NCBI RefSeq assembly: GCF_018873765.1
Contig: NC_057919.1
Location: 66,830,984 to 66,894,983 of the forward strand
Direction of reading: 5' to 3'
Length of the DNA stretch: 64,000 nt
Source of the DNA: Telopea speciosissima
Lineage: Eukaryota; Streptophyta; Magnoliopsida; Proteales; Proteaceae
Each line of letters begins with the position of its first letter. The first letter of the stretch is position 1. The position numbers and the translations under genes are program-made. This document shows positions 2 through 54,549 of this stretch, piece after piece. The notes under the pieces were generated by a model, which was given only the letters and a program-made list of their open reading frames with translations, made no database searches and was not told the DNA's origin.

Positions 2-658
2 GGTGTGACATGTGGGCGCATTTGTGATACCGGTACTAAATTAATAAATTGTGAAGACTTGGAGGAGGTGATGGATGGATTAGTGGTCGACCACCAATGT
101 CCCAATGGATTGTTAATACTAATAGAATTGCCAAAATTGAAGAAGATATGTGTTGGTCTCGCACCAATAAATTGCTTTAATCAACTAATGTTGATAGATA
201 TAGAGCGATGCCATAGCTTGAAGATGGTCTTCACGAAGGAAATGCGACGACACTCGTTCAAGTACTTGTACAGTATTCTTGTTAGTGATTGCGAGAGAAT
301 GGATGTAATAATTGAAGCAGATGATGATGATGCTAAGGAAGAAGAAGTTGGGGAGTTGTTGGAAGAGAATAATAATAATATTAATGGTGAAGTCATCTCA
401 CTTTTTCCAAAACTCAGATTTTTCATTCTAGTAAATCTACCAACACTAGCAGAGGTGTGCACCAATCACATTTTGCATTGCCCCCTTATCAATGAAATGA
501 AGGTGAGAAACTGTCCGAGGATAAACAAGGATCCTCTCCCCATACAAAATACGGATGGTTTACTTGTCATCATCGAGGGGGAAGAAATGTGGAAAGAAGG
601 GAGCAATAATAAGGTCGTGAAGAAAAGGAAATTTAAGGAAATTCAACCTGGACCCTAA
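2..658 (+). CDS. NLR disease-resistance protein, C-terminal LRR end (5' truncated by window)
   Basis: The frame is open from base 2, so this is the last 218 residues of a longer protein. It shows irregular plant LRRs of the style seen at the C-terminus of CC-NBS-LRR (RPS2/At4g27190-like) proteins: 'LPKLKKICVG', 'CFNQLMLIDIERCHSLKMVF', 'LFPKLRFFILVNLPTL', then 'MKVRNCPRI'. Between repeats lies a strongly acidic, Asn-rich loop (DDDDAKEEEVGELLEENNNN). Such LRRs sense effectors or guard host proteins in the cytosol; that role is family knowledge. The NB-ARC part would be upstream of the window. The last codons (GGA CCC TAA, 650-658) come from an inserted hairpin element. Without it the frame would run through the downstream TSD copy and stop two codons later (TCT ATG TGA, 849-857). 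It could also be a decayed LRR fragment, since only the end is visible. Confidence 0.8.
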   Translation, partial: GVTCGRICDTGTKLINCEDLEEVMDGLVVDHQCPNGLLILIELPKLKKICVGLAPINCFNQLMLIDIERCHSLKMVFTKEMRRHSFKYLYSILVSDCERMDVIIEADDDDAKEEEVGELLEENNNNINGEVISLFPKLRFFILVNLPTLAEVCTNHILHCPLINEMKVRNCPRINKDPLPIQNTDGLLVIIEGEEMWKEGSNNKVVKKRKFKEIQPGP

Positions 659-839
659 TCTTCTACAGCTCAGTTGTCCGAGCGGTCATAGCAGTGCAGA
701 TCATGTGAGGCGTGCATTTATCGCCTTACCCCTGTCCAAGCATTTTGCCCGAGCAGGGATAAGGCGGCCATTTGCACGCCTCATTGTGCCTGCACTGCTA
801 TGACCGATCGGGCAGCTGCGCCGTAAAGGATCTGTTTCG
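650..839. mobile_element. Hairpin MITE, Mutator-like, 9-bp TSD
   Basis: A 190 bp near-palindrome flanked by a perfect direct repeat attcaacct (641-649 and 840-848). The arms fold back along most of the length: 'gtcatagcagtgcag' pairs with 'ctgcactgctatgac' and 'cgccttacccctg' pairs with 'cagggataaggcgg'. The ends are ggaccctaatcttctac and gtaaaggatctgtttcg. The same core and end pattern recurs in other elements of this window. It carries no ORF and is inserted at the 3' end of the LRR coding frame. Confidence 0.85.
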
Positions 840-945
840 ATTCAACCTTCTATGTGAACATGCATCACATCACATCACATGAGAGATACCAATTCTGGGT
901 GAGTCCCACATCTTCTTGATTGGTTCCCTGCTGTATTGTGTGCTC

Positions 946-985
<40 letters not shown>

Positions 986-1413
986 TACTCTTTTTGTATT
1001 GAATTTTTTTTCCATGCCTGTGTACTTATATATGTAGTTATCTATAAATATCTATTTTCTTTTTATCCTTCTTAGATTTATTTATTGTATATACATATTT
1101 TGATTATTATATTTTGACTTAACCAATCCATCATCACCAATGAATGGGATGAGGAGGCAATGAGGAGCCAGATTACGTATGAGAATGACTCGCAGCCGTT
1201 TAGGTGGAATCCATTGTGTCGGATCCACATTGAGTAGATTCCATCTCAACGATTGTGAGTCATTCTCATACATGAAATTCTAAATTCCATATAAGTAACA
1301 ACAATATTGTTAATGTTATCCATTGTAATGATGTTGGGGTAGTAATCTCATATTACATAACTCAACTATATCTTATAAATCTAATTTTTGAGTAGGTGGT
1401 AGCAGAATAAAGC
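840..1413. other. Intergenic stretch with CT microsatellite and a short palindrome
   Basis: Holds a (TC)n tract at about 948-979. At 1177-1271 there is a roughly 95 bp palindrome: its left arm starts gtatgagaatgactcgcag and its right arm ends with the reverse complement gtgagtcattctcatac. The palindrome looks like a small foldback MITE unrelated in sequence to the main hairpin family. No gene is visible. Confidence 0.5.
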
Positions 1414-1572
1414 AGATCATCATCCTCTCCAGTTCTCTACTAGGCTCAGTTCCCCCAGTGCCTCTAATAAGGGGGACGCAATGACCACCCTACCCCTGTC
1501 TGAACACTCTGCTCGGGTGGGGTTCACACCCCCTTATTAGAGGTACTAGGAAACTGGAGGTGATAATATTCT
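1414..1572. mobile_element. Hairpin MITE, 9-bp TSD
   Basis: A 159 bp foldback element with perfect TSD gaataaagc (1405-1413 and 1573-1581). The ends are agatcatcatcctctccag and ctggaggtgataatattct. The arms cctctaataaggggg and cccccttattagagg pair, and the core has the family motif of 'ctacccctg' opposite 'gggtgggg'. Confidence 0.83.
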
Positions 1573-2425
1573 GAATAAAGCTGTACCATGTTTGCCTTAA
1601 ATCTTTTTCCCTTGTTTTTTTTTATCATTGCCTTTGTTCATTCTTAAGATCGTGTCTCTTTAGGGAATGGAAAATAAGTAATTTGTTTCTATTTGGCAGG
1701 TCAAATAGGGCCAGTTAAAATCAAAATGATTAAAATAAAATAAAAAAAAAAAGAAAACAAAGAGGAAAACCCCAGACACGAATACGTACAATAAGGATGT
1801 TGAACTATCATTAATCAACAATTAATCATCATCATCTTCTTCTTAAATCCAAACCAGTATTAATCCAACTATGCAATTCCAATATATCCAAGCTCACATC
1901 TTCAAACAGGCCAAACTGAAGCTAACCAGCAAGTACTCAGAGTATATGTCAAAAAAAGGGTCGGTGGTAGTGAAACATGACAAGAAATGATTGTTCTCAG
2001 GGGAAAAAAAAACACTTACAAGAAAGAGTGTTGGTAAAAGACTGCGAGACTAATAGGGACAATATGGAGTTACAAGAGTTAGCGAATGGAGAAAGTTAAA
2101 AATAATGGAATAGGTAACATCACATTCTCGGAAAATAAATTCACCAGAGAAGTTAAAGAGACCAGCTGGTTATTGACTATTAGATTCATTCGATGTGTAG
2201 ACACCTCATTTTTGTTACCCCAGAGGACATGCATAACGATGATAAACAAGTCTAGCTCCATGAACGTGGTTTAGGCTTTGGTTGAGTAATTTTATGTTCT
2301 CCTACGCCACAGACTTCACTTACAACATCTTTCTGAACATTTTGCATGAACTATTGAAAATGCCCTTAGCAGGGGTTGTCGGATCCAAGCTAGGTTGGTT
2401 GGTCAATGTTTTATATATTTTTTAA
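1573..2425. other. Intergenic, no recognisable feature
   Basis: AT-rich sequence with a poly-A run near 1740. Open frames in the 2079-2274 area exist on both strands but resemble no protein family and have no splice context. I see nothing to annotate here. Confidence 0.5.
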
Positions 2426-2810
2426 GGGTAGATTAAACATCACCCCTTGGTTTTCAAATGAAACTCAAATCAACCCCTGGTTTTTGAAAATACTCTTCCG
2501 TCCCCCTCTACAGTAACGGTGTTAGTCTGTTGTTAGTTATTGGGGTGAAAGGACTATTTTACCCTTGTATTAAAACATTATAATTAAATTTAGAATACTA
2601 TCCTTCAAAATAAATGTTTGGATGTCAAGGGTAGTTTAAGGATTTAAATTTATTTAACTAGCTAACATCATCACTTAACAGCATAAAACTAACGGTACGA
2701 ACTAATTTGTCATATTGGGGTCTAATACAAGGGGTGATTTGAGTATTTTAAAAAATCAGTGGATGATTTGAGTTTTGTTTGAAAACCAGGAGGTGACGTG
2801 TAATTTACCC
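2426..2810. mobile_element. MITE with ~70-bp terminal inverted repeats (Mutator-like style)
   Basis: The left end gggtagattaaacatcaccc, followed by ttggttttcaaatgaaactc, is matched in inverse at the right end, which ends caggaggtgacgtgtaatttaccc. The TIRs extend about 70 bp to 'gaaaatactc' / 'gagtatttt'. There is no coding capacity. I could not see a convincing target duplication in the T-rich flanks, so superfamily assignment rests on TIR style only. Confidence 0.6.
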
Positions 2811-4713: not shown

Positions 4714-4899
4714 CATCCTGATCTTCTACTGCCGAGCTGCCCCGCAGAACCCTACTGCCAAGACACAGAAAGGTGGTAAATTACCGTCTTACCCCTGCCT
4801 GAGTGCCTTGTCCGAATGGGGGTAAGACAGTCATTTACAGCCTTGCTGTGACTTGGCAGTAGGGTCCTGCCAGACAGCTCGGCAGTAGTGGATCCAAAT
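4714..4899. mobile_element. Hairpin MITE (no clear TSD)
   Basis: A near-palindrome in which gatcttctactgccgagctg pairs with cagctcggcagtagtggatc, accctactgccaag with cttggcagtagggt, and the core ccgtcttacccctg with gggggtaagacag. The core and the GATC-TCTAC ends match the hairpin family. The flanks show no clear duplication. It lies about 350 bp upstream of the CP12 start. Confidence 0.75.
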
Positions 4900-5066
4900 T
4901 GGTTCGAACTTGCATTTTCATTTTACGATGACTAAAATGTCCCTGTTTAACAAAACAAACAAGGGTGGGACAAATGATACAGCCAATGGGAGGTTAAGGG
5001 CAAGATGGGATTTTCACTTAGATGAGTCTGTGGTGTTTAGACTTGCCAACAATAATATAAGAATAA

Positions 5067-5073
5067 TATATAT
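5067..5073 (+). promoter_or_regulatory. Putative TATA box for CP12
   Basis: TATATAT lies about 180 bp before the CP12 ATG, implying a transcription start near 5100 and a leader of about 150 nt. The assignment rests on sequence and position only. Confidence 0.35.
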
Positions 5074-5252
5074 CTTCAAAATGGTCAACACGTGGAGGTA
5101 TTTGGTTGGTAATGATCCGATAAGAAGTGTGTGTACATAGAGGAAGGAGACGCAGCTATATTGCTAGCTTGCTACTTTCATCTCATCAAAACAATCTCAA
5201 TTTGATTTCAATTAGAAGAGAAAGAAGAGTAAGAAGAAAAAGAAGAACAGAA

Positions 5253-5654
5253 ATGGCAACAACACTAGGTGGTATAAGTCTATCTTCCACTAGAGGAATT
5301 ATGGCTAAGGCAGATTCACCCAACAAGACCCAAAAGATGGGAATTTCCCCATGTTTTGTGAGAATGAACATGATCAACATGAAGCGAAACTTTGGAGGAA
5401 GAGGATTAGATCGCATGTTAGTGAGGAGTGCACCAGAGAAGATATCGGAGAAGGTGGTGGAGAGCATAAAGAGTGCAGAGGAGACTTGTGCAGGGGACCC
5501 AACGAGCGGCGAGTGCGCAGCGGCTTGGGATGAGGTAGAAGAGGTGAGTGCAGCTGCTAGCCATGCTAGACAGAAGAAGAAAGACTCCGACCCTTTGGAG
5601 ACCTACTGCAAGGACAACCCTGAAACCGTTGAGTGCCGCACCTACGAAGATTAA
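5253..5654 (+). CDS. CP12: Calvin cycle protein CP12, chloroplastic
   Basis: A small, intrinsically disordered redox linker that scaffolds phosphoribulokinase and NADP-GAPDH into an inactive complex in the dark-state chloroplast stroma (family knowledge). The 133-residue single-exon protein begins with a Ser/Lys-rich transit peptide (about residues 1-58), and the mature part starts near RSAPEKISEKV. Both redox Cys pairs are present: C79/C88 (ETCAGDPTSGEC) and C119/C128 (CKDNPETVEC). The family core AWDEVEEV is at 91-98, and the C-terminus CRTYED is the GAPDH-binding tail. The start is the first ATG in a purine-rich leader (aacagaaATGGCA). The frame stays open upstream to 5127 but without an ATG. 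A minor oddity is Val127, where the tail usually has an acidic residue. Confidence 0.97.
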   Translation: MATTLGGISLSSTRGIMAKADSPNKTQKMGISPCFVRMNMINMKRNFGGRGLDRMLVRSAPEKISEKVVESIKSAEETCAGDPTSGECAAAWDEVEEVSAAASHARQKKKDSDPLETYCKDNPETVECRTYED

Positions 5655-7491
5655 TGAAGGATTTAATCTCTCCTCCTCCTACATGGGTTTGAGGGTTTCC
5701 CTTCCTTTTTCTTGCTTCTTCTTCCTGTAATCATTTCTAAGACTACTCTGATGGATGACTTTATCCTTATCTGTTAGATTTGCAGTTTTTTTGTTTTTTT
5801 AAATAATTTTAGGGGTCTTAAAGTGTAGAGAGGAGATCACTCAAATTGAAATCCTGATAATATGATTAAGTGATGTTGGTTCGATGCTGTAACTGTACTG
5901 TGTTCTTGAAATGTTGAATTCCCATAAATATAAATTGAAATCGGTGATCCCTTTGTGTGTAGTGTGATTAGTGATTAATAATTTCTTGAGCTAAATTTCG
6001 GGTTTTAACTTTAGATACCACTACCAGTATGGATCGGGCTGATTCAAAATCAAAAATCCATTTTTCAATAAAAATTTATTGTTGCACTCTAATTGTAGGA
6101 TGGTTAATTAAGGCCTTTGTGTTTTTTGTTTCTACGTACACAGGGTTTTAAAACAAGGAATTGGTATCAGAATCAGGTTTAGCGGATTTTGGTTAGATTC
6201 CATTTTGAAACGGCCAGAATAGATTGGAACAAATCATAATCCGTCAGAATATGCCTAAACTTTAGAAATGCTCTATTAATCATCCCTTGCAGGAATTGGG
6301 ATCAGGTTCTGCCCATTCATCTGATCTGATTCTGATTTTTAAATATGTACCTTTCAAAAAAGGGATGGAAAATTGAATAAACCAAGGTGAATTTGTAAAT
6401 TTCTCGATTAACACATCATCAAGCTTAAGGTATAGGAATTGAGAACCGAATGCTGATTCTGATTTGATTCCCATTAGAATTGACTAGAATCACCTGAATC
6501 CTATAATTCTCATCACAAATTAGTATGTATCAGCCGTGAATTTTAATTCTTCAAACCATGTTCATTATAGTGGAGTTTTTTGCTTTAGAGAAGTATACCA
6601 TCTCCAACAAATATGCTTGCTATTTGATTTTGAAAAAAGAAAACGATCACTTAATCAGTTCAAATGTTTTAATTGGATTTAAGAGTTTATTAATATTTGT
6701 AAAAGGGACTACAGCAAAAATCAGCACCATTTTCTATCTCACTTCTTTGATCGAGATTTATTTCTAGGAATCCCATCCATCATTCAAACAAAGAGAAATA
6801 CTAGTCACTGCTATGGGTGGTTTACGATATTAATTAGTTGTAAAATTCAATTGATGCACAATAAAACTTTTTGGAAATGTGTTCTTTGTACGGGAGTGTG
6901 GCCTCTAGGTTAGTAGGGGGCCAATGGGAGTGCTAACAAAATCATCAATAGCAACAGAATTTTCACTTTTCATGGAGGTTAGGCAATCATTTCACCCCAT
7001 CTTATGTCTGAACGCCAGAGCCACACTCCTCAACAAGGTCCTTTTTCTCAAACATTATGTATCCTGATTGAAGCTTTCATATTTTAAGGAATTCAGATAG
7101 AAGGTTAAAAGGGGCTTCAAATTAAAAGTGGTCAATATTTAATGAGAAACTAAAATATTTGAATGGAGAAATGACCATCCTGTTTCCAATGAAATGAAAA
7201 ATCCAACACTTTTGGATCCCGCTCCTTGTTGGTACAGAGGTCACACAGCCTGGTAAGGATCTCCTCCCTAATTTTTTAAGGGGAAGGGATAGGCACGAGA
7301 GCAGCGTGCCCATCCCGTCTTTCATTGGGGAAGGAGAGGGAGTGAGTGAGGATGTAACCTACCCACATGTTTAGTAATCGAATGTTCCAGTTTCAAGCTT
7401 TAACCATTCGATTCAAATGGGGCCTACTGATGCAGGCCACCTTTAGATACACCTACAAGTTGGTACGTTCTTTATTAAACTCTATAAACAC
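5655..7491. other. CP12 3' region and intergenic sequence
   Basis: About 300 bp of 3' UTR-like T-rich sequence is followed by AT-rich DNA. 6150-6480 reads like degenerate repeat sequence (many 'gaatc'/'gattc' words). Short frames at 6558-6767 and 7367-7825 resemble nothing known. No RNA gene was recognised. Confidence 0.45.
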
Positions 7492-7631
7492 GAATCGTTA
7501 TCCCCTCCGATTCTTCACATGGGGCAGAAATGATTATCCTACCCCTTGCCCGAAAACACTGTCCCAGATGGGATCCCCTCCCCCTATTAGAGGAATTGAA
7601 GGTGCCCACCAATTGGGAGTAATAATTATTC
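7492..7631. mobile_element. Hairpin MITE, 10-bp TSD
   Basis: A 140 bp foldback element flanked by perfect ctataaacac (7482-7491 and 7632-7641). The ends are gaatcgttatcccctccg and gggagtaataattattc. The arms are more decayed than in other copies, but the core 'ctaccccttgcccgaaaacac' and the end pattern fit the family. Confidence 0.7.
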
Positions 7632-8390
7632 CTATAAACACTGCCGGGGTGTATAGCTCACTTACACTGTCTCTCCATCCAAAATTCAAACTTAATTACC
7701 ATGGGCATGGGAGATTCCACCCACACCGGATCCAGCACAGAAACTACAAACTGAACCCTAATCTTCCAAATTCCAATGATCTTCAACATTTTAAAAAAAC
7801 CACATCAATGAAACTCTGCAACTAACTATTCCATACAAAGCCTGCCTGATTCAGTAATTAGGTTTTGAAAATAAGAATCTGCCAAATTAAATTGATGCAG
7901 CAAATCTCGACAAGATTCATACATAAAAACCTACTTCATCCATTGATAAGGTCTTATACCAACAAGATCGATTGAAATCTCCTAAATCAAACAGCAGAAG
8001 AAGCCACCCAACCAGACAATCATCATCAATCCATCCATAAACTCCAACACAAACCCAAGTAACTCAGAATTCCAATTTCCACCTGTTTACAAAACCACTT
8101 GTACATATTTTAAGCAAAATAGTTAAAAAAAAAACATTCCATCTCCATAAACAAATGATCATTAACATCTAAAACACATCAATGTATGAAACCAGGAAGA
8201 AGGAAAAAACCATAATTAAATGTTAATACGATCTGGAATCAGAGTTCTGGATACAGAAACCATAGATCCCAAACAGTTAGAAACAGAGTACCAGAACACC
8301 TAAATCTACTAATACTATTCACATTAAAGATGAACAGATCACTACTAAACTAAGACTCGGACTATATATTCTCAGAAGCTCATTTGTGCA

Positions 8391-8885
8391 CTAGAAAAAC
8401 ATTGGACCCATATCAGAAGAAGCCATTATTGGCTGTGATTGGCAGGGAAGTTGCCATGGTTTCAGCAGAGGATCTGATACCTCAGGCGTGTTCATGAAGA
8501 GATCCCCTGTATCCTCCATAAATCCGAGGAAAGAATTGAGATATTCCAACCTATCATTTAATTCCGCCATACGAGCCCTCAAAACCTGGTTCTCAGACTC
8601 GACCTGGTTGTAGCGTTGCAAGGTTGTCTCGGTTTTCTGCGCAATCACACAGTTCTGTTTCTGAAGTTCGCTTACTTGGCCTATCATATCATCCAAATGC
8701 TTCTGCTTCCTTTGTCGCGATCGCCTTGCAGATTCGCGGTTCGAAAGCATCCTTTTCCTTTTCCTTTCATCGACCCCTGCGTACTGTGGATCGCCTTCGG
8801 ATCCAGAGCTTGTGAGTGGTTGCGCAGATGACATTCCTCCCTTGCGTCCGTTATTCTCCGTCGAAGAAGTCGGAGTTGGAGCCAT
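8391..8885 (-). CDS. Group S1 bZIP transcription factor (bZIP11/bZIP44/bZIP2-like)
   Basis: A 164-residue intronless bZIP. The basic region RKRKRMLSNRESARRSRQRK (41-60) carries the invariant N49-x7-R57 signature. A long zipper follows, with heptad positions M67, L74, I81, T88, V95, L102, L109 and L116. The C-terminal DPLLKPWQLPCQSQPIMASS (138-157) is typical of S1 members. These nuclear factors bind ACGT-containing elements, usually as heterodimers with group C bZIPs, and reprogram amino-acid and sugar metabolism under low energy (family knowledge). Translation start is the ATG at 8885 (tgacATGGCT). The leader contains the conserved sucrose-control uORF plus two small uORFs, so expression should fall when sucrose is high. 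Which S1 paralogue it is cannot be settled by eye. Confidence 0.96.
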   Translation of the reverse strand: MAPTPTSSTENNGRKGGMSSAQPLTSSGSEGDPQYAGVDERKRKRMLSNRESARRSRQRKQKHLDDMIGQVSELQKQNCVIAQKTETTLQRYNQVESENQVLRARMAELNDRLEYLNSFLGFMEDTGDLFMNTPEVSDPLLKPWQLPCQSQPIMASSDMGPMFF

Positions 8886-8981
8886 GTCAGCGAGATGAGT
8901 CTTCTCAAAGAATCAAACTTTTTTCAAAGGGTTCGGAATGCACACTTGATTTTCGACAAAAATTGGGGAAAAAAAAATCGA

Positions 8982-9005
8982 TCAATCAGAGAAGAATGAG
9001 ATCAT
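8982..9005 (-). CDS. Short uORF (7 aa) overlapping the end of the SC-uORF
   Basis: ATG at 9005 overlaps the terminator of the sucrose-control uORF (TCATGA) in another frame, and it ends at TGA after seven codons (MISFFSD). Its position just after the conserved uORF recalls the short third uORF of Arabidopsis bZIP11 leaders. It may tune reinitiation at the main ATG about 97 nt downstream. The peptide itself shows no conserved motif. Confidence 0.5.
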   Translation of the reverse strand: MISFFSD

Positions 9006-12211: not shown

Positions 12212-12383
12212 GAACCCCAAATTATCTCCTCCTGTTCCTTGTTCGGTGTAGATCCTTGTTCCCCAATGCCTCTACTAAGAGGGAGTGGATCCCACCCAAG
12301 CAGGGGTGGAATGATCATTGCACCCCCTTGTTAGGGGTATTGGGGAATTGGGTTGGGCAGGGAAATGGAGGGGATAAAGATTC
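12212..12383. mobile_element. Hairpin MITE (TSD not clear)
   Basis: Near-palindrome: 'ttgttccccaatgcctctac' faces 'aggggtattggggaattggg', and the ends gaaccccaaattatctcctcc and ggaggggataaagattc form the family TIR. The core 'gtggatcccacccaagcagg' shows the usual loop region. Confidence 0.7.
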
Positions 12384-12920
12384 ATCCATGCGTCCATGCA
12401 TAGAATGACTTAAGTGACAACTTAAGGTTTTATTTATTTATTTATTTATTTTTTTAAGATATCTTAATTATGTATTTCAAATTTATTTGTAAAGTAAATG
12501 AGAAAGAGAATACTACCTGGGTGCATGCGATATGCTGTCCTACACCCAAACACAGGATAGTCAAAATGACCCCATGTTCTTAGGAAACTCCGCCTTTCCA
12601 TGGGGGTTGTTGCTGTCATTTTCTCTGCTCCTATGTCTAGGTGCAGGGCACTTCATTCACTGAATGCGCCCAAATAGCATTTTTTTCTCCCAAAAAAGAT
12701 ATAAAAAAACGTGGATTGACTTTTCTTTCATCTAATAGAAGAGAGAAAATCTTTTTAGTCAAGGGATTTAACGTATTTCAGACCTTTAGGTGGTAAGAGT
12801 TAATGATGAGACTTGCTAATCCAAGAGTCCAATTATTAGCATCAAATTACCTTGAATAAGGAGATTTTCTCTTCACCTTAGGTGTTGAATAACTTGTGCC
12901 TAAAACATTGGTTTATTTGT
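12384..12920. other. Intergenic; inverted 'contains cacccaggtg-like' remnant
   Basis: 12515-12690 holds inverted words (gtgcatgcgatatgctgtcc ... aggtgcagggcacttcattc) suggesting another decayed foldback element. The borders are unclear. No gene. Confidence 0.35.
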
Positions 12921-15254: not shown

Positions 15255-15473
15255 AAGTGACCTACCCACCATGGATTATGTTGGCCACCATCAGCCTCCA
15301 AATTGATTATAATGCTTTGTGCAATAGTAAAACCATGGCCTCCTCTAGGAATTGTGAAAGGATGTTTCAACTTCAATTTTCAATACGAGTAAACTAGAAG
15401 AACTTTTTAGCTTTATAGATAAAGGTACAAATTTCTTTTTGAGTCCAATTTGGTCCAATATGGAAAGCAATAA

Positions 15474-15663
15474 GGATCGTGATCCTCTATGGTGTACTGT
15501 CCATAGTGGTTTGAGTGGTGTATAAATAAGACAAGATGCAATGACCGCCTTACCCTCACTCGGGCAAAGCGATTGGGTAGGGGTAAGGCGATCATTGCAC
15601 CACGCCCTGTTTGTCCGCTACTCAAGCCGCTACAGGCAGGCATGCCGTAGAAGATCTGGATTG
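15474..15663. mobile_element. Hairpin MITE, 9-bp TSD, empty site known
   Basis: A 190 bp foldback with perfect TSD aagcaataa (15465-15473 and 15664-15672). The core gcaatgaccgccttaccctc pairs with gggtaaggcgatcattgc. Ends are ggatcgtgatcctctatgg and ccgtagaagatctggattg. The equivalent position in tandem unit 2 (near 17160) lacks it. Confidence 0.9.
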
Positions 15664-16301
15664 AAGCAATAAACATGTCAAAAACAAATTTTCTACCTCT
15701 CAAAGTCTTGAAAGCAGCCAGCCACCTTAGACATTAATTGGCCATATTCAAATGGGTTTTTTGCTAGTCTAGCTAATAACAAGGATTACAAGGTCAACTG
15801 ACCCATCTATTTGAATGAGGAGATTTAAGTTGCATTTGGTATATATTCTTAGAATGTATTTTAGGTTTATAATGTATTTTAAGAAATCATATCAAATAAC
15901 TTATATTTGATCCTAAACATCTGGACCCACTATTTAGTTGAGGCATATTTATCAACTCATCTTTCCAATTTTAGGCACCTAGTTTGCTGTTCCCATCAAT
16001 CCAATTTTATCCCTATGCCCTCCTAAGGATCTCAACATTAAATTGTGGCTAAATAGAATGAATTATTCAATATACATTGAAAACTTTTGAAATCATGTAA
16101 CGGACTTTTTGAAATTAAGACGATGTTTGGTATGATCATATTTTGGGACGTATTATTGACCTAGGAAGCATTCCAAGAATGATACATATATGAATTATAA
16201 TTTAAAATTTATCTAAGAGCGGCAACTTTGTTTGAAAATGTGAAACTATTAATGATAGAAAGAAAAAACACTATACATGAATGAGTTATAGGCTAACTAA
16301 A

Positions 16302-17776: not shown

Positions 17777-18307
17777 AAATCATGGTTAAATAAAATGAAC
17801 TATATAACTCTACTTTGAAAACAATTGAAATCATATAGTGGACTTTTTGAAATTAGGGTGGCGTTTGATATGATTTCTTTTGAATGCATTATCGATCTAG
17901 CATGCATTCCAAGTATCCAAACCAAATGTAGCACTAGAGTTTGACTAGATTTTACTTTAAATTGTTTCTACCAAAAAAAAAAAAAAAAACTTTAAATTGT
18001 TAGTTCTAATCTTTTAAAAAAACTTTAATTTATATTGTATTTTTATTAAATCTAATAATGATGCATATAGTTTAAAATTTATCCAAAAGAGATAACGTTG
18101 TTCTTCGAAGAATGTGAAACTATTAACAATACAAAAGAAAAATCGTATACATGATAGGGTATAGTGTTATACGGTAAAAATGTGTTACTACCACACATTC
18201 CCTAACTAAGGACTCTCTATCCATCTTTGTTCAGAACAAACTAAAGATTAGTCCACAATTTCACTGTATAAATATCTATACTTCAACTAGACATACTATC
18301 AACTACA

Positions 18308-18422
18308 TATAAAAATTCTTTGTTGTAATACAGGGTGTGCGATGCATATTGGCACACGTGGCCTCTGCTGTGCCATAGAATGTGCACCACACACCCTGTA
18401 GTACAATAGAGGATCCGGATTC
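18308..18422. mobile_element. Short hairpin MITE, 10-bp TSD
   Basis: A 115 bp foldback with perfect TSD atcaactaca (18298-18307 and 18423-18432). The arms attgtactacagggtgtg-type pair with cacaccctgtagtacaat. It has the family right end agaggatccggattc. The homologous site in unit 1 (about 16850) is uninterrupted. Confidence 0.85.
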
Positions 18423-18520
18423 ATCAACTACACCTTGGTTGGCATCAATTTTTAAGTTATTAAATTATAAAGTAATCCATCACTATTAGTTTATGAAAGA
18501 AGTCCAACAAGTACAACTAT

Positions 18521-27509: not shown

Positions 27510-29001
27510 TTTTGTTTTTTTGATAGATGATGGTCGTAATATTTGGTTACAAATTTCAAGAGAAACCATCAATATCAGCCTTAAAGTAGTCAAAGCCTCT
27601 AAACATTAAAATGACTGTTATGAGGCTACTTCTACACATGTAGGAAGAATCGTTGTTGTCTACAGTAGGAACCAGTGTGGTTCCCTAGTGCCTCTCACAA
27701 GAGGGGGTGGGACCCACCTGGGGCACCTGACCTAACACTTTGCCCAAGTGGGGTCCACCCTCCTCTTGTGAGAGGCACCTGGGAACCGCACCGGCCAGGG
27801 AACCGCATACGATAAAAATTCATGGAGTGTGTGTGTTATGTAGGCAGCATTCCTTTAAAGCGACTGTTCTAAGGTTACCTCTACACATGTAGAAGAGAGT
27901 GTGTCATGTAGCATACGTGTGTGTGTGCGTGTGGGCATGGGCATGGGCATGGGCGTGTGTGTGTGTGTGTGTGTGTGAGCTGTTGGTCCTCCTCTCGCCC
28001 TCTCTCTCTCTCGCTTTTCAGTTGGTGAAATTTCTCTTTTTCCACCAGTTATGAGTTGTCAAACATGTTATTTCTCTTATGAGTGAGCATTTTCTGTGGG
28101 GGACCGCATGGGCCGCACGTGTGGAAACCAATGAAAACGCACACTCTGGCATCTGGGGTGAGATTTCTGTCTTTTATGGTGGCGGGGAGATTATTTTGCA
28201 AATTTTGCCCCCCATTGTGTCTGGGCATGGCCATGTTATTTCTCGTAGAAGTGTGTTCTTTAATAGTAGAAATTTGCAAAAAATCCCCTTAATAAGGAAA
28301 CATGAAATTATTGCCAAACGCAGCCTAAGTTTCCTAGAACTATTCCTGAATTGGAAACCTGATCGAAATTCCAATTATGAATCGTAAACCCAAATTCCAA
28401 AAAAATAATTGTCTTAGAAATGAGTCAAATGTGTTTTCCCATGCGCGAATGACACTTATTAGGAGAAGTAGAAGTGTGTCAAACGATAAAAAGTGAATGG
28501 CCGTAGAGTTGGTACTTGGATCGGCTGATTTCAATACATGTCCGATACTATATCAGGGGTATCGTCGATATCAGGAAGGGCTGATTTCAATACATGCCCG
28601 ATACTGTATCAGGGTATTGTCAATACCAGAAAGGCTCAATTTGGTTGCAAGGGGAATTAAAGGGCAGTTATGGAAAATTTTTCAAACCTAAAAAAGAAAC
28701 TTTTATAATTATTACCCCATGTGGTTGTATAAATTACTTCAATTTCTTACCATATATAGTAAATATACATTTTACATGTAATATTTATTTTATATTTTAA
28801 ATCAAAGGGGATTAGATGCAAAGTAAAGTGAAATTTAATAACCAAATATGGAATGATTTAGAGTTATTGATATTGTCACATGGTGTCATATGGGATAATG
28901 ATTATAAAAATTCTTTTTTTAAGTATGAAAATTTCTCTTCCCTTCCCTTTAATTCCCCTTGCAACCAAACGAAGCTTAGTATTGGGTAAGAGTGTCTCAT
29001 C
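27510..29001. other. Region between the RPB9 copies: simple repeats and hairpin
   Basis: Contains the hairpin element at 27647-27821, a (GT)n/(GCATGG)n microsatellite at about 27918-27977 and a two-copy repeat of period 56 (28523-28634). Its units start ggctgatttcaatacatg. The direct repeat 'ctacacatgtag' flanks the hairpin (27632 and 27881 areas). No gene. Confidence 0.5.
27647..27821. mobile_element. Hairpin MITE (TSD not clear)
   Basis: Arms ggttccctagtgcctctcac and gtgagaggcacctgggaacc pair almost fully, and gggtgggacccacctgg faces the gtggggtccaccc side. The ends gaatcgttgttgtc and gataaaaattc resemble the family ends. No matching flanks found. Confidence 0.7.
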
Positions 29002-37315: not shown

Positions 37316-38169
37316 TTGACATGTGGATGACATTGACTGAGGTTCTTAAAGTGGGTGGACGTGTAAAGTTTTAATTTGATAATGCATGTGTTAATTATCA
37401 GTACAACAAAGTGTATGCTGTATTTCGATGGTTGTAATATTTTTTGATAGATGGTAGTCGTAAACAACATTTGGTTTCATTCTTCAGGAAGAAACCATTA
37501 ATATCAGACTTCAAGTAGTCAAAGGTTAAACTTTAAAATGACTCTTCTAAAGCTGCTTCTACAAATGGAAATATCTCTCTGTGGCTATCCAAAGTGAATG
37601 CTTATCGGTAGCTTCAAGTTCTTTTCGATGATATCATCTTGGTCTGAGTCTCATATAATCATGGAAACTGAATTCTGGTTTGCCAAGTTCAGGTGTTTGT
37701 GGTATCTGTGGCATATTTTGACCGAAATACTGAAGTCTTTGTTTAACTACTTTGTCCAATCCAGGATGTCAAATTTGATAGTTTAAACATGTGGCAAATC
37801 CAGGGTTATGAAAATCAGAATTGGGGAATGGAATTGGTCAGTACCGACCGTATTTTCTTTGAAATTTGGTGATACAATCATTAGGAGAACTCATCCCCAA
37901 AACCGGCTTATAAGGTGAAAAAACCAGAAAACCCAAAACCCAAAACCACATCAACCCACACTAAATCTCGTAACAAACCATCACTTTTCCAGACCAATGT
38001 CCAAATCAGGTTTACTCGAGTGTAGGTAAGAAAGCCGATGTTTGTTGTGGCAATGGTACTGGATCCATGACAGCTTTATTCGAAGGTATAGGCAACCTTG
38101 CTTCTGACTTCCAAGCCAACATCCACTGTAGTGAGAGTATTGATATCCAGAAGTCGGGACTGCTTTGAC
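37316..38169. other. RPB9-B 3' UTR and downstream DNA
   Basis: The first roughly 240 bp match the 3' UTR of RPB9-A (acatgtggatgacattgac, aaagtgtatgctgtatttcg). The rest is unique sequence without a recognised feature. Confidence 0.6.
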
Positions 38170-38347
38170 GGAAAATTATCACCTCCAGTTTGCTGACCGG
38201 CCCAGTTCCCCAGTTCCTCTAATAGGGGGATGGTGGACTCCACCCGGGCAGGGTGTTTGGGCATGGGTAGAGAGGTCATTTCAGCCCCCCTTTGTTAGAG
38301 GAACTGGGGAACTGGGCCGATCAGCAAACTGGAGGTGATAAAGATCC
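38170..38347. mobile_element. Hairpin MITE, 10-bp TSD, well preserved
   Basis: TSD ctgctttgac (38160-38169, 38348-38357). The ends ggaaaattatcacctccag and ctggaggtgataaagatcc, and arms cccagttccccagttcctct / agaggaactggggaactggg, pair nearly perfectly. This is the least decayed hairpin copy in the window. Confidence 0.92.
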
Positions 38348-39401
38348 CTGCTTTGACATCACTAGTTCGAACCTTAAGAGAACTTGCCCGTTAAAATCAA
38401 CTTATCAACTTATAAGGTGAGTGAACCCAAAAACATATCAAATCTGTTAACCAAACTAAAATGGAATCCAACTCCATTTTAGATTGATTGATTGATTGAT
38501 TGATTGTAACACTTGGTGATCCATGCCTCCACACCCACCAACCCGCCATTTTGTGGAATTGGCTCAAGTCACAATCCAAGCGATTTTGTCAATACAAGGG
38601 CCAATATGGTCAAGGAGGAGAGTGTCAATCTGATTCCCGAATGGTCAGGATGTGATAGAGCTGTTGGCATGGGATCCTTTTCCCTTGAACATATCCATCA
38701 AACATATTTGCATTAAATACATACCCTTTTACTGGCCATTTGGTTTGATCAGATAAACAGCCGCCCTTGGGTGTTCTACAGATTTTATTGGGGGTATAAT
38801 GTCAACATTATAATCATGGTTCAAGTAAGCAGAATCGGCATCCATGAATTTCGATTTTGATTTCGATTCTGAATCAGCTGCAATTGACCAGAATTGGTCA
38901 CAATCACTCTGAACCCTAGAAATCCAGGACGAATAAGCTGGAATCACAGTCAACCAGCAACACTAGCCCTTTTTGGCTGGGTCCAAATCCTGAAGGGCTA
39001 GAAGCCTAGAAAATGTTAGTCACACATCATCTGAATTGAGATTGAAAAGAGAGGATATGAAAAACACATAGCACGCAAACTAGAACTTGGAAAAAAGTAT
39101 AATCCTGGAATTTTTTTTCCATTCTTTCTCTTGTTATGGTATAATGACGGAAGTTCTGTCTATACATGAAAGAATGACTGGTGGGTGTGGTTTTCCACTA
39201 CTTCCTCTTTACTCCAGAGATCTCCCCCTACCCCCTAACAATCTTTCAAAGGAAAACCAAATCCCCATAATTGGATCAATGGGTGAAAAAACCTTCAATA
39301 AATAACAACAAAAAAGAGATATATACAAATGAAACCAGAGAGGGTTCATTCAAACCTCCTCCCAGACTTTTGAATCTTCTACAAAACTGTCTGGAGAAAA
39401 C
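38348..39401. other. Intergenic between convergent RPB9-B and BRWD-like genes
   Basis: Holds a (GATT)n tract (38482-38506) and AT-rich DNA. The part near 39300-39401 should include the 3' UTR of the minus-strand BRWD-like gene. No separate gene seen. Confidence 0.5.
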
Positions 39402-45600: not shown

Positions 45601-48177
45601 AGTATCTAAGTGACATTAGACCTGAAGCAGAAATTTTCAATTGCACTCTAGGACATAGTTTGAGGTCTTGTTGGGATCTCGGAATTTTTCTTGGTTTCGA
45701 CAGCTAACGAGTCGAAACCACTATCGAAATAGAAAAAGTACAAGGTTTTGGCCGAAATTTTGGTCTAATTTCCATGAACAACTCCTAGAGCAACCTCGAA
45801 CTATGCTCTAGGAGTTGTTCATGGATATGTCATGCACCAGTGAATCCTTGCTATGAGCAGCGGATAATTCTCATGACTGGTAAATTTGGAACTGCAAGTA
45901 CAACAAGGTATAGATGCACTCAACTGGCGTCGGTACTCTTATGACCAGAAATTTGGAACTGCAAGTACAACAAGGTGTAAAATGCGTTTGACTGACATTA
46001 TTCTTCAGAGAGTTGCTTGTCAAGAGAAAGTAATGAATGATTATGAAATGAAAAGGGTAATGAAGAGATGAGGTAAATGAATGAAAGAGAAGTATGTATG
46101 TATGGTTAATGGTAACGTTGTAAAACATCCCTGTGGCTACTGCCCCTTTCAAGTAGGGGTTTATGTACTAGACGAGGGCCTTATGACGAGTAGGACCATT
46201 GCCGCCGCAGGGCTCCGGTCGCCTGGAACAAGGTATAGATGTGGCCTACAATGAACTAGAGCTTGTCCTCCCCCAAGGCTACGGTGCTTGGACACATGGG
46301 AGTAGACATGTCTAGTATGATGTTTATAGATGAGGGTTCCTCCCCCAGGGCTCTGGTGCCTGGATACATTGGAGTAGAGCCCGTCTATATTAGTATGATG
46401 CTTATTCGATGAGGGTTCCTTCCCCAGGGCTCTGGTGCCTGGATACATGGAAGTAGAGCCCGTCTAAATAGAATGATGTTTATTAGATGAGGATTCCTCC
46501 CCCAAGACTCTGGTGCCTGGATACATGGGAGTAGAGCTCGTCTATAATGCTCACCGTATCATCCTCCCTAGGGCTGTAGTGCCTGGGAATATGAGTAGAA
46601 TAATGATACGAGGTCGACTACCACCCTTAATCATTTGTGCACTTCGGTAGTTCACTAAATGGCCAAGACCTGACCTAACTAATTAAGGAATGGATTTCTA
46701 CGGTTTGCCATTTATGTCTTTGTAATCATTATTGTATCTTTAAATGCTTGCATGTATAGAATCATGTGTACCTCACTGGGCGTAAGCTCAACCCATTTAT
46801 GTTGACATTTTTCAGATGAGGAGGCTTGTGCAACTCTAGTGTATGTGAGTTGAGAACCCAAGGTTAGGGCCCAAAAGACATTTCATGATGTTAAGAACAG
46901 TACACTTTTTGAATTGTAAATAACACTTTGGTATGTTTGATTCAGACTTTTGTATAATGCATAAATGTAGTTATTTGCCACCAGTGCATAAATTAACTTT
47001 TAACCTTTATGCTTCCACTGTGTTGTATGCGATACTGGGAATTTTGCTACTACTTTTACATGCTTATTAGACCTTTTGGGTCAGCGCTTGAGACCTTCTG
47101 GGTCAACGCTTGCGAGAGTAGTGCCTTGAACCCTGTCTGGGCTGGGGATGTTACACCCCTTCCCTGGTATGGCCTGGGCCTGTAACGAGTGCTTTTTTTT
47201 TTTTTTATAATTAAGAGCATGTTGGAATACACAGCTACTAGAGTTTATATTTTAAAATTACAACATCAAAATAGTGAAAATCAGGGCTGCAACTTGCAAG
47301 AATCTAGACACAAGAGGTGGAACTCAATGTGCTAAGAAGACTCAAACAAGTCATTCAAGGACTTGTCTAAGAATAGCATTTACGAATAAGCACTGATATA
47401 TTCGTAAATTGTGTCATTTTCTATGTATCTAATATTTCACCTTGAAACTTTTTATAGGATAATACAAAATTTAGTATATGCTAGTTGTTAGATGTTCATC
47501 TATGTGAAAGAAAAAGCCCAAAGTAGGAAAGGAAACAAGGAAGTGTCACCCACGGATTTGTGGGGTCAGAAATCAGAATCCAGCTTGTGGCTGACACAGA
47601 CATGTGATTCATTAAAAAGCGGACATGTAACACTTGTAAAGATAAAAGAAATGGAAGACAAAATGCATATCTTTCTTCGCAATGTTTATATTGACTGAAA
47701 AGTAAAGATTTAGTTCCAGTTGGACAATTTAAGATAATAATGTATAAAACAAGAACAGATTAGACTATGCTCGAAGTTTTAAGAAAGTTTCATGTATAAG
47801 CCTTGCCATCTAATTTAAGAAACTTATATAACAAATATCTGTGTTAATATGGAGCACAGGCATATGAGTACAAATATCAACAAAACTAATATGAAACAAA
47901 GAACAGTCAACCAACCTGATCAAGAACATTCCCATGGGTGTCTTGGATAAGGGGACGATAATCCCCAAGGAAGAACTGTTAGAAACATTAAACACAAATA
48001 AGCATTGCAGGTAAAATTTCATGGAACCGAATGTGCTAATCAAAAAACAGAAAAGGTTGAAATTAATTTTGTAGTAGTACCTGATCATATTTGGCATCCT
48101 TTTGGGACTCCCCTTGGCCGGTGTTTAATATGTAAATTTGCCCAACATCATCTGAAAGTACAATTGACGTCCCATCC
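39402..48177 (-). CDS. BRWD/PHIP-like WD40-tudor chromatin protein, C-terminal 1126 residues (5' part not in view)
   Basis: Eight exons on the minus strand, all with GT-AG borders and consistent phase: 48177-48081, 47975-47916, 45448-45394, 45287-44887, 44811-42871, 42681-42109, 41918-41860, 39597-39402 (stop TAG). The first visible exon encodes the last WD40 blade (DGTSIVLSDDVGQIYIL). It is followed by the hallmark LGDYRPLIQDT, ETQLAPYRRNMQDLLCDSS and IIPYPEPYQSMYQQRRLG stretch. Then come a long acidic, Ser-rich nuclear region (NLS-like RRSKRKKHK, GRRVKRR) and the cryptic-tudor segment (about 835-1040, YIPQLGDEVIYLRQ ... SWWEGRVLAV ... SPWERCVVSY). A bromodomain-like tail (1063-1126, PVPLSLEVVQERL ... 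MLSNAESYFGKN) closes the protein. Animal relatives bind methylated H3K4 and act as CRL4 receptors; the plant role is less certain. WD40 exons upstream of 48177 were not found up to 64000. Confidence 0.92.
41093..41120. repeat. (TC)n microsatellite in the last BRWD-like intron
   Basis: About 14 CT units within the intron between the last two exons (39598-41859). The remainder of that intron is AT-rich with A and G homopolymers near 39651-39680 and 39773-39788. Confidence 0.8.
46119..47155 (+). mobile_element. LTR-like insertion with internal minisatellite in a BRWD-like intron
   Basis: Starts tgtaaaacatccc and ends gggatgttaca, inverted LTR-style ends; the 5-bp flanks do not match. Inside, about 46165-46590, five to six imperfect units of roughly 80 bp repeat 'gggctctggtgcctggatac' and 'ggagtagagcccgtcta'. 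The downstream part (ggcgtaagctcaacccattt ...) resembles plant Gypsy LTRs. Just upstream, aatttggaactgcaagtaca occurs twice (about 45884 and 45951). Confidence 0.5.
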
Positions 48178-50041: not shown

Positions 50042-50076
<35 letters not shown>

Positions 50077-50726
50077 AGTGAGTGAGAACTGAAGAAGAAG
50101 AAGAAGAAGAAGAAGAAGAAGGAGAGAGTTGCTTGCCGTAGGACTGGGAGGAGAAGAATAAGAAGAACTACCAAATAAAAAATAAAAAAAAACAATTACT
50201 TACCTGCTGGGAGAATCGCCGGAGCTGGGAGAACTTGCCGGAGCAGACGAAGGAAGCCGATAGTCGCTGGACTGGAGGGGTTCGAAGTCTCGAAGAACTG
50301 AAGAAGTCATCTGTCTCATCTCTCTCTCTAACGAGCCTCTCCTTCTCTCTTCTCTGTTAAATCTAAGTCTTTTCGATTTCTATTAGGGATTTAGGGTATA
50401 ATCATTAGTTGTTTTTTTATTTTTTGTATGTTAATGTGTATTGCAGGTGTAACTTGAAAAGTTACACCTCCAATACACATTAAGATAAAAGCATCTTTTA
50501 AAAGGTTAAAAAAAAAATTAATTATTAGAAACTAAAGTTTTATACCCTTGAACAAGAATATCGGCCGATATGGCCATATATCGTGGTATGGCGTCCATGT
50601 CGGCGCCATGGCGACACCATGCAGGCCATATCGGTCGATATTCTTACATATCTCATATCGGTGGTTGATATGCCTAGTAATCCAGCGATATGACGCCATG
50701 GCCATGGTGACGCCATGACAACTATG
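49196..50726. mobile_element. Non-autonomous hAT element (CA-AGTT ends), 8-bp TSD
   Basis: Perfect TSD aaccatat (49188-49195, 50727-50734). Left end cacagttttcatgtcgtcac and right end gtgacgccatgacaactatg are inverted. Subterminal zones are arrays of gccatg/tatcgg words (50555-50720). The inside has (GT)n (50042-50071), (GAA)n (50090-50121) and low-complexity frames on both strands. A minus-strand frame near 50330-50205 (Ser/Pro-rich, followed by gtaagt) could be a remnant first exon of a lost transposase or a captured exon; I cannot tell. Confidence 0.8.
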
Positions 50727-51467
50727 AACCATATGCACTCACAACCATGTGGCTAGGTCTACCAAATATTCAATTCACAATCATTCAATTGACCCTGCAG
50801 AACACATCCACAAAACCATAAAAGCACACACAAGACAAGGCTTATGTGATTACATCCACGGTGCAAATGGTAGCTTGTGCTACAAGCCTACAACCCAAAT
50901 CCTACCTCTGGTATAATGTACAATACAGTTCAATTTGGAAGCACCCACTCCCAGGAGTACTGATCCCCAATTTAGGTAGCACCCACTACCAAGGAGCACC
51001 AACCCTCTCTATCAAGCACCCACTTGACAGGTCCACAATATAGAAACAATGGGTTTGTATTGAATGCCCCAATTATAAGCTCAAAACATACAAATCCCAC
51101 CCAATACACTACAAGTATTCACTTAAGCAGTTTATCACGCACCTAGCCTAGAGTGGATTACAATACAACAAAGGGGATTTGCTAAATGGGTTACCTAAGC
51201 CGCTGAGTAACCGCCAGAGGTGCTGCCGATTGGACGTCTCCAATCAGTGAAGCTCTCCTCTGACCTCTTCCTCCTCTTCTTTCACTTCTTGTTCGTTCTC
51301 TCAAATTTTTGTTCTTCTTTTCTTTCCTTTCTTCTTCAACCCTTTTAATTATTGCACTCAATGCTTCATCAACCTCCCATGAACATTCAATGGAGTAATC
51401 AATGCATGGGAGAGGTAGGTCTTCTAGGGATTAGAGGTGGGAGACTCAAAAACAAAAACAAAAAAAA
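50727..51467. other. Intergenic/intronic DNA without a recognised gene
   Basis: Contains degenerate 'aagcacccac'/'caccaaccc' words (50935-51030) and a pyrimidine-rich tract (51255-51345). Nothing codes for a recognisable protein. Confidence 0.45.
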
Positions 51468-52902
51468 GGGAAAATTTTACGGACACCCCCTGTAAGTGAA
51501 TTGTATGTCACGGACACCCCAAAAAATCCTAAAATATCAACCTTCCCCCTGACGTTAAGCACAGTTTGAAATGTTCATTTTAACCCCCTTAGTCATTTAA
51601 ATAAAAACCTCTCATTCCATCTTCCCTCTTCTTCCCTCTTCATACCGTCATTCTCTGCAACTTCGCATTCATTCAATAGCGTAAAGAAAGCTCAAAATCC
51701 TTGCGTGTCCGAAACCTGTAGTAGGAGAGAAGAAACAGACAGAAACATTTTTTTGTACGAGCTTTGAACCGTATCTCCGTCACAGACTTTTGGGTGTGCA
51801 AAGATCAGTTACTATTATGTAGTTCTTTCATGTTTATGAGTGATTTCTCCCCTCGTAATCCTGGGAAAGCCTGGAGAACTCACCGGTGGTATCTTCAACT
51901 GCATCCATGAGATCACCGCTGCTCTCGCCTTCGCTAGGATGAGCGACTCCACTTACAGAGTCGAAACCACTTCGCATCTCGCTCAATTGAATTTCGACAA
52001 CTTGGTTCTTTCACCTACAGAAAATCCGATCCCTTCAAGATCGGAAACTGGAATTGGTAAGTTTTCTCACTCCCAAATGTTTAATTTCTTCTTAATTTTC
52101 TGCTCGTTCTGCCGATTCAAAACATTCTCTAAGATAAAATATCATCTTTGATAGTTCCTCTTCATCCGCTTCGTTCTCTATGATCTCTTCTTTCGATCTC
52201 TTATTTCATTCCATTTTCTGAAATGAGCAAGAAATCATTTGCAAATCCCAACCCAATCCCACTTTTGATTAAAAAAGAAAAGTCAATTCCTTTTCAAGAT
52301 TCTCTCTTTTCTTTTAATGGCTACTCTACTGATAATTATTATAGTATTTAGAGAAGATAAATTGGACTGATTTTCTTTGTCTTATTTGAAGGCATTTAGC
52401 GGTGGAGAAGAATCGAACATTGTCTATTAACTTCCCCCACAGTTTCTCCTGTTATCTAATAAAACAAAAAACCCAACATTTTGATAACACCATGCAACAC
52501 TGGATTAGTACCGCAGGACAAAAGGGGAAAAACATACCGGTCTTGGTGTTCTTCCTTCTTCCGCCTTCAGAGCATGGAAATGGGTCAAAAAATGGCATCG
52601 ATTGCAGGTGGAGAAGTTCTCTGTTCTTGCTTCTTCCACCTTCAGCCCAGCAAAAAGATAAAGGAAGAATGGTGTTTATATTTGGGGTTTTACCGTTGAG
52701 GGTATTATGGGGAGTTAACCCTGTTGGAAGGGTAATTTCACCATTATTAAAGAGTTAACAAGGACTTAACTGCTAAGACCTAGCGGAGTGGACTAAGTCG
52801 ACATAAAATAAAAAAATAAGGGGTGTTTGTGATATTTTAGGAATTTTTGGGGTGTCCATGATATACAATTCACTTACAGGGGGTGTCAGTGAAATAATTC
52901 CC
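51468..52902. mobile_element. Mutator-like element, possibly a Pack-MULE
   Basis: TIRs begin gggaaaattttacggacacc and end ggtgtcagtgaaataattccc. They share cccctgtaagtgaattgtat and ccaaaaa-tcctaaaatatca. The A-rich flanks obscure the duplication. Inside, 51840-52066 has an exon-like frame (GKPGELTGGIFNCIHEITAA ... LAQLNFDNLV) ending at a gtaagttttc donor. That looks like captured host coding sequence, but I do not recognise the gene. Confidence 0.75.
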
Positions 52903-54549
52903 CCCCTCCCCAAAAAAAAAGAGTTCCACCTGTTTTCCTCCATAAATCCCAAATTTAATTTTCCAAACCCGAGCCTCATTTCCGCCCCCGGTTGGACCGC
53001 CTTCTGCACACTTGCAGAAAATAGTGATAACTCCCTTTCCCGATATCGGATTGACATGATTCCTGTGCCATTGGAAAAAGGGGTCAAGATATCTTCAATT
53101 TTCATGTTTTGAGCTTCTACTTATTTTACAAGTAGGACAGCTCAAAAATCCCATGAAGTCACTGCATGTGCAGAAACAGAATTTTGGACACTATGCGCTA
53201 CATCTACGTTCGAGATCATAACTTCCTCGTCCGAACTTAGATTGACCTGATTCTTGAGGCACTGTAAAGCTTACTCATAAAGCTAAAGTGATGCAGGAGC
53301 AATCCTTTGGACCGGCCCAAACCCGTTGGGGGACCCACATGAAGATGAACCAGGTCGAATTGGGTTTTTGGATTCAGTAGGATATTTAGTTATTTATTTA
53401 TTTAGATTTATTATTGGGATTTTCTCTTGTAATCTTTTACTTTGAATGGGTTATCTATTGGATTAAAATCCTCTGCAGTGCGGTCCTGAGAGCTTGACAT
53501 GTGGAAGAAGCTTCATCCAACGGTGCAAGCTCAATGCAGGGCAGTTTTTTTTCTTCTTTTCTTTCTTTTCGAGCTCGGCACCGTTGGATGTCGCATCTTC
53601 CATGTGTCGAGCTCTCAGGCCTGCACTGCAGGGGATTTTTTTTCCTTATCTATTAGCGGTAGAGTCCTTTCTATGTTTTAATAGGCTAATTAAAGATAAG
53701 AGTTGATTTAGGATTTAATTTCAGTTTTAAATTACTATTAGGAGTCTTTATTTCTTCTTTAAATACAAGGTTGTAACCTACGCAACACTCAGGTTATAAC
53801 CTCTTTAAAAATTAAAATTAAGTCCGTTGGTTGTAGCCAAGAACCTCTCTCTCTCTCTCCAGTTTAAACAAAACATCTCTTTATATTAAAGAGACAGAGT
53901 TGGTACCAGGTATTAGTACGTAAGGTTTCTGAGAGCACTTACAAGGCTTAACTCGTCACAAGACCAGGCCGAAAACTTAATAATCAAACATCCCTCGCGT
54001 CTCTATTTTTTTCTCTCTTTACTTCTTCTGCTTCTTCCATTATATTTTCTTTTGAGTTTATGAACTTCCCCATATGCTGTTAAGTTCCAGCATAACTGCG
54101 TTCAGATTTAGAGAGTTGATCTCCCTCTTTCCTTCCTCCTTTTCTCCCCATCTTCTTAGTGTAGGATCCTCTCCTCTGGGCGACCAAACCCCGTGAGTTT
54201 CAGTCCCTAATCCCTGCCTGACATTGATAACCAGACCTGCAAGGCTGCAACTAGGTGGGTCATGAGCCTGTCCGCCAACAGCAACTTAATCCTTGCAATC
54301 TCAGTAATATGATGGTCAATAGGGTTTCTGTTGGTGTGTAATCCAGAGGTCTATCCATCATCTGCCTCCCCTTAAAATCCTAGGTCAAACAGAGCAGCAC
54401 TGAATGAATGCTATCCTTCAAAAGCCTGCTGGTTTTCCGCCATTGACTGTTGCGGAAGGTTGAAGACAACCCGAAACCCAAATTGTGGGTTTTGTTATAA
54501 AGCCTTACTTCTTAGTTTCCAAAATCACCCCCTTCTTATTCCTTTATTC
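52903..54549. other. Degenerate LTR-retroelement-like region hosting a hairpin MITE and the copia target
   Basis: Text such as 'gaggttataacctctttaaa', 'gttggtaccaggtattagta' and long CT-rich leaders (53845-54160) reads like an old LTR retroelement leader. 'cactgcatgtgcagaaacag' (53160) has a counterpart 'cactgtatgtgcaaaaacag' at about 60523, beyond the copia element. The copia element therefore probably inserted into, or near, an older repeat. No domains. Confidence 0.4.
53460..53645. mobile_element. Hairpin MITE, 9-bp TSD
   Basis: Perfect TSD ttatctatt (53451-53459, 53646-53654). The ends are ggattaaaatcctctgcag and ctgcaggggattttttttcc. The arms gagagcttgacatgtggaag and atcttccatgtgtcgagctc pair around a pyrimidine-rich loop. 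It lacks the 'ccttacccc' core of the other copies, so it may be a sister type. Confidence 0.85.

Follow-up and report, generated by a model that had tools for sequence, protein, structure and literature searches.

Mutator-type hairpin elements in Telopea speciosissima: arm inheritance within bursts and co-change of arms between lineages

Across 207 surveyed plant genomes, 41.5% of the miniature inverted-repeat transposable elements (MITEs) are of Mutator type (PMC12550479; this and the following descriptions rest on excerpts of the cited papers). In nematodes, the Mutator/Foldback elements Tm1 combine 9-bp target site duplications (TSDs) with long inverted repeats and MITE-like members, and the terminal inverted repeats (TIRs) of one element are on average 93% alike (PMC3169594). 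The arms of Galileo/Newton, which belong to the P superfamily of Drosophila, are >99% alike within some copies and differ by ~7% between copies (PMC2775673). Template switching at hairpins, known in RNA genes, both creates and repairs hairpins and leaves perfect stems and multi-base compensatory changes (PMC8794818). Titles and opening lines of abstracts in the open-access literature yielded no report of arms that change together between MITE subfamilies.

Here we describe a large group of hairpin MITEs sampled by a 64,000-nucleotide stretch of the Telopea speciosissima genome (NC_057919.1, positions 66,830,984 to 66,894,983; hereafter the window). We consider it likely that these are whole-length hairpin MITEs of Mutator type, amplified in bursts within which the arms are inherited by side, while the arms of the founders change together between bursts, most plausibly through hairpin-templated copying. 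Two levels that are easily confused are separated here: copies inherit their arms passively, and lineages keep matching arms while the stem turns over.

Inheritance of the arms within subfamilies

The hairpin MITE is a discrete element, and relatives of the window copies 650 and 38170 match their queries up to the TSD borders. With copy 650 as a 208-base query, the 40 of 527 candidates that were scored reach up to 85% identity, compared with 72% for its own complement, and the better matches span from ~9-18 to 195-202 of the query. For copy 38170, 40 of 2,550 first-look candidates were scored, itself included, and the other relatives among these are 96-99% identical to it; a burst so nearly identical suggests recent activity of a transposition system.

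The exact core TGACCRCCTTACCCCTG has 809 matches in the 823-Mb assembly and the reversed core has none. Searching with family copies found nine intervals in 20 test blocks of 10 kb placed at round coordinates and a single 27-base match in the reversed blocks and window, and the resulting density of ~45 per Mb would, as a rough extrapolation and if the blocks are representative, correspond to tens of thousands of copies. The window is nearly three times richer than the sampled blocks, with eight copies matching other copies (ten when self-only matches are included).

Core-bearing copies were sampled from contig C1, on which 100 core sites were listed and 93 read, leaving 90 after merging of sites within 120 bases. 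A lenient palindrome scoring, which kept 37 of the 90 sites, extended the arms too far; the scoring used in its place retains a full-length palindrome at 67 of the 90 sites; the other 23 were dropped, and L040 is possibly counted twice. Of these 67 palindromes, 16 are flanked by perfect direct repeats of 9 bp or more, a few of the 16 being low-complexity or off-register, compared with 69 of 19,802 swapped-flank pairings as the control. On the same contig eight same-strand core matches lie ~5-36 kb apart (G000:C1:22216105-22322241), several near 5.4 kb or multiples of it, and these are copies carried on a larger duplicated unit.

Subfamilies were defined from the 55 copies whose arms have 70 pairs or more and whose loop orientation is clear. 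A gap-lenient identity merged all 55 into one cluster and edit identity was used instead, giving seven groups of at least three copies (A, B, C, D, E, G, and H; 48 copies) and seven ungrouped copies. The seven groups have tips, core, and an asymmetric loop in common. Window copies 650, 4714, and 15474 match this A-H sample set, and copies 1414, 7492, 12212, 27648, and 38170 constitute an F group with core and tips in common. Because the window samples several subfamilies, the stems in it look copy-specific; the strong stem differences reported in the first-pass annotation are real there, but they are not found within the subfamilies examined. Arms align well between copies inside a subfamily, an outcome which that annotation had named as telling against a special mechanism, and fail to do so between most subfamilies.

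The strong stem differences among window copies had suggested that gene conversion or template switching remakes one arm on the model of the other in every inserted copy. In the 650 family (21 copies), however, nine left-right differences are retained in 173 of 189 cells with seven converted-like, and no copy carries a converted run. Across four subfamilies 301 of 365 side-specific cells are retained, 20 are other and one is swapped, and 43 are converted-like as such rewriting would produce; A and B have no side-specific columns and fall outside this count. The 38170 family was represented by the window copy and 20 others (n = 21), a sample biased to the youngest copies because it was taken from the top of the scored list. 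Fourteen of the 21 equal the consensus, 18 have perfect TSDs of 9-11 bp, and all 21 retain the unequal ends and the arm mismatch with the same left-right asymmetry.

A tree of 138 arms from 69 copies gives the same picture. For 103 arms the closest arm is on the same side of a different copy in the subfamily; for 22 it is on the opposite side of another copy, for 11 it is the arm's own partner, and for two it belongs to another subfamily. The 650 family splits by side. In two comparisons the left arm finds its best match in its own partner in 16 of 52 copies and in 21 of 55, and by the gap-lenient measure the own partner is closer than the nearest other copy in 6 of 55. These data contradict rewriting in every copy for the 650 and 38170 families, and as a general process it is very improbable. 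In both families the copies of one burst go back to one founder, inherit left and right arms separately and afterwards decay independently of each other.

Some observations pull in the other direction. Fewer side-specific cells are kept in E (11 of 20) and in C (22 of 30), and edit identity places the own partner ahead of the nearest other copy in 28 of the 55, although in that comparison the arms were trimmed to their paired part, which favours the own partner. Alike private changes show a two- to five-fold excess in the raw count, and a smaller one under re-pairing. There each of the six families still exceeds the mean, by a clear margin in B (3 of 5000 permutations), which holds sub-lineages, and slightly in D (2453 of 5000). 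This small excess would also be expected from copy-by-copy rewriting, and it leaves room for rare arm correction inside single copies.

Co-change of the arms between lineages

The proposal that arms are copied from each other is not supported as the main process in individual copies and survives in altered form for lineages, where the consensus arms change together. Left and right consensus arms differ at 2-10 of 76-80 columns in six subfamilies and at 20 of 81 in D (3-25%), and arms of different subfamilies differ by 20-53%, with a same-side mean of 40%. Under separate evolution of the arms since a common palindromic ancestor, the two arms of one element should differ no less than arms of different subfamilies do. 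In all 21 subfamily pairs (the pairs being non-independent), alike changes in the two arms outnumber the estimate for independence ~2 to 10 times, and for A, B, C, and E both arms fall within one clade each of the arm tree (support 0.81-0.97). Of the 55 copies, 39 are of a single type in both arms. Two mosaics are mirrored in both: L100 has the arrangement B-D-B and L038 the arrangement E-A.

The most likely explanation is a non-autonomous element of two arms of ~55-80 nt around a short loop, mobilised in trans by a MULE (Mutator-like element) transposase and amplified by cut-and-paste in bursts; the TSDs, ends, and bursts are observed, and the transposase is presumed. Each burst would comprise the descendants of one founder, with arms inherited by side and copies decaying independently, as shown in the 650 and 38170 families, and between bursts the arms of the founder lineage would change together as tips, core, and loop persist, as seen at the consensus level. 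It is probable that the founders regained their symmetry between bursts, perhaps through hairpin-templated copying, and the most likely cause would be an occasional copying of one arm or block onto the other in the master lineage. Subfamilies could also be born in this way: a decayed or recombined master copy would have an arm or block rewritten through its own hairpin, the restored palindrome would burst, and the stems would turn over to give mirror mosaics such as L100 and L038. We regard this extension as quite possible, though somewhat short of an even chance.

The main alternative is preferential amplification of well-paired copies, in which arms are never copied; single mutations would arise in either arm, and founders would look re-symmetrised because better-paired copies are amplified more or the stem is selected. 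This covers the both-arm differences between subfamilies as well as the one-arm differences that are also observed. However, comparison by eye of the 38170 burst with L036 shows three bases within six that differ in both outer arms, and such a clustered change, like the mirrored block mosaics, would need several matched events; moreover, founders with unequal arms were amplified all the same (consensus identity of 89% in the 650 family and 78% in D). Preferential amplification is a serious contender, on the doubtful side.

The same comparison by eye bears on whether each subfamily arose as a palindrome of its own, for instance through inverted duplication of a different sequence, and has in common with the others only the tips required by one transposase. 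A left-right difference near the loop is common to the 38170 burst and L036 and, together with the clustered both-arm change, is a better fit to local copying than to a wholly new palindrome. Copies 18308 and 53460 and the F group do share tips (the F group also the core) and no stems with A-H, as separate formation would have it, but in A-H the common features extend beyond the tips to the asymmetric loop and the core, and in some pairs the alignment covers the full arm (C-G at 20-23% and D_R'-H_R' at 23% difference). We consider independent origin unlikely.

Re-symmetrisation of founders has its own difficulties. D, G, and H form no clade of left and right arms, and that of W has a support of 0; the left-right difference in D (25%) is as large as the D-H distance (23%), and part of that left-right difference we read as an indel shift. 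Fourteen of the 16 copies that are not single-type are one-armed, ambiguous or without a clear mirrored mosaic, and B1 and B2 are separated by six both-arm columns and eight one-arm columns. G and H comprise three copies each, and all sampled core-bearing copies come from one chromosome. If re-symmetrisation is nevertheless correct, abundant hairpin MITEs would provide a natural archive of hairpin-templated copying of plant DNA, and it would help to explain how new hairpin stems, possible sources of small RNAs, continually arise.

Copies in the window and their surroundings

Seven of the eleven copies listed in the first-pass annotation have perfect TSDs of 9-10 bp, exactly as it had given them (starting at 641/840, 1405/1573, 7482/7632, 15465/15664, 18298/18423, 38160/38348, and 53451/53646). 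These elements have long inverted arms and are 115-190 bp long, a length that by itself leaves no room for a transposase. The tips include GGATC..ATCCTCTAC and GGATCTTTATCACCTCC, and core and ends are common to most window copies, as had been noted, with 18308 and 53460 sharing the tips alone.

Among the copies related to A-H, the forward-strand element of the 650 family at 650-839 (641..848 with its TSDs) is flanked by the 9-bp TSD ATTCAACCT at 641-649 and 840-848. A B-type hairpin on the forward strand at 4714..4902, with approximate ends and no TSD seen, is 83% identical to the genome copy L015, and the G-like hairpin at 15474-15663 (15465..15672, forward strand; 9-bp TSD AAGCAATAA) is 78% identical to L027. 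The F group includes the forward-strand hairpin at 1414-1572 (1405..1581; 9-bp TSD GAATAAAGC), hairpins with approximate ends at 12212..12400 on the reverse strand and at 27648..27815 on the forward strand, and the reverse-strand member of the young near-identical burst at 38170-38347 (38160..38357; 10-bp TSD CTGCTTTGAC). It also includes a forward-strand relative at 7492-7631 (7482..7641; 10-bp TSD CTATAAACAC) in which the arms have decayed and the hairpin is lost. The TSD of copy 27648 is unclear, the one candidate having one mismatch and lying off the stem, and a convincing TSD was not found at copies 4714, 12212, and 13645. Copy 27648 is bordered on either side by similar ~30-base stretches (ctacttctacacatgtag type; ~27612-27643 and 27855-27886).

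Two hairpins without an assigned strand have the common tips and a different stem. The shorter, at 18308-18422 (18298..18432), has the 10-bp TSD ATCAACTACA; several of its genome relatives consist of its right half in two adjacent, mutually inverted copies, and 18308 may have arisen from a longer palindrome by deletion. The other, at 53460-53645 (53451..53654; 9-bp TSD TTATCTATT), has a partial relative at L049:626-781, the one relative examined.

All eleven listed copies had been called almost entirely self-complementary, and nine are so beyond shuffled sequences. Against 100 dinucleotide shuffles each, the folds of nine have z-scores of -5.3 to -14.3, with 13645 weak (-3.1) and 7492 not a hairpin (-0.4). 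The palindrome score lies above all 40 shuffles in nine copies, equals the best shuffle in 12212 and falls below it in 7492. Copy 7492 is a decayed copy, with its perfect TSD and family homology despite the lost hairpin. Copy 13645, with no TSD, no family match and a weak fold, was dropped as a family member. The window has no match to a known RNA family at Rfam gathering scores, which was our test for microRNA genes.

The genes around the hairpins include an RPS2-type leucine-rich repeat fragment, CP12, a bZIP gene, and pieces of copia-type retrotransposons (2-655, 5124-5651, 8394-8912 on the reverse strand, and 55362-58880). Open frames of 822 codons (42850-45315) and 259 codons (41992-42768), both on the reverse strand, have no Pfam match at E 0.001. 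Two small hairpins whose outer ends resemble each other (GTAYGAGAATG..), at 1177-1271 and, in an unrelated place, at L050:4234-4321, probably represent another small hairpin MITE family. Further inverted repeats outside the hairpin family lie at 2424-2812 (arms of 72 nt, spacer of 245 nt) and 28640-28969 (64 nt and 202 nt), and a very regular short hairpin at 45768-45828, with 25-nt arms that are 96% complementary and an 11-nt loop, has no Rfam match at the gathering score.

Mutator assignment and comparison with known systems

The elements have the attributes of MITEs, being shorter than ~600 bp with inverted repeats, TSDs, high copy number, and no coding capacity. As in foldback-like elements, the long arms can pair over most of the element, and nine of the eleven window copies fold beyond shuffled sequences. 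Mutator elements have TSDs of 8-11 bp, mostly 9-10 bp, and the seven in the window and 18 of the 21 38170-family copies (9-11 bp) fall in this range. A search for MULE transposases found 827 candidates, and all 150 that were scored exceed the cut-off; many of them contain long open frames. The assignment to Mutator-type hairpin MITEs, a large group of a known kind, agrees with the first-pass annotation and is supported by structure, by the length of the TSDs, and by the abundance of MULE transposase genes. No transposase gene was linked to the hairpin MITE ends, the ends of one MULE having been read. The want of an autonomous partner counts against the scheme of amplification in trans, since the sole MULE checked, from an unselected block, has other ends and 606-bp TIRs, and a tip-motif scan of part of the genome DNA read found single and paired tips and no recognisable long element. 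This MULE has a MuDR-type transposase frame (DBD_Tnp_Mut; L061:4437-7397) with nearly identical inverted repeats of ~606 bp nearby, loosely placed at ~2020-2625 and 8354-8959 on the reverse reading, and its ends are unlike those of the hairpin MITEs.

Like other plant Mutator-type MITEs, the elements described here are short and non-coding with inverted repeats, 9-10 bp TSDs, and high copy number; unlike them, the stem is nearly the whole element, and tips, core, and loop are common to the subfamilies whereas the intervening stem is not. With Tm1, as far as the excerpts describe it, they share 9-bp TSDs, long inverted repeats, and MITE-like members, whereas Tm1 has tandem repeats in its arms and a known transposase-bearing member (PMC3169594), neither of which was found in the Telopea elements, no search aimed at tandem repeats being made. 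Galileo/Newton belong to another superfamily with 7-bp TSDs and, in contrast to what is described for Galileo, the copies of one Telopea burst are more alike than their own two arms. Template switching, which the excerpted text of PMC8794818 documents in RNA genes rather than in MITE founders, would here have acted in the founders of hairpin MITEs.

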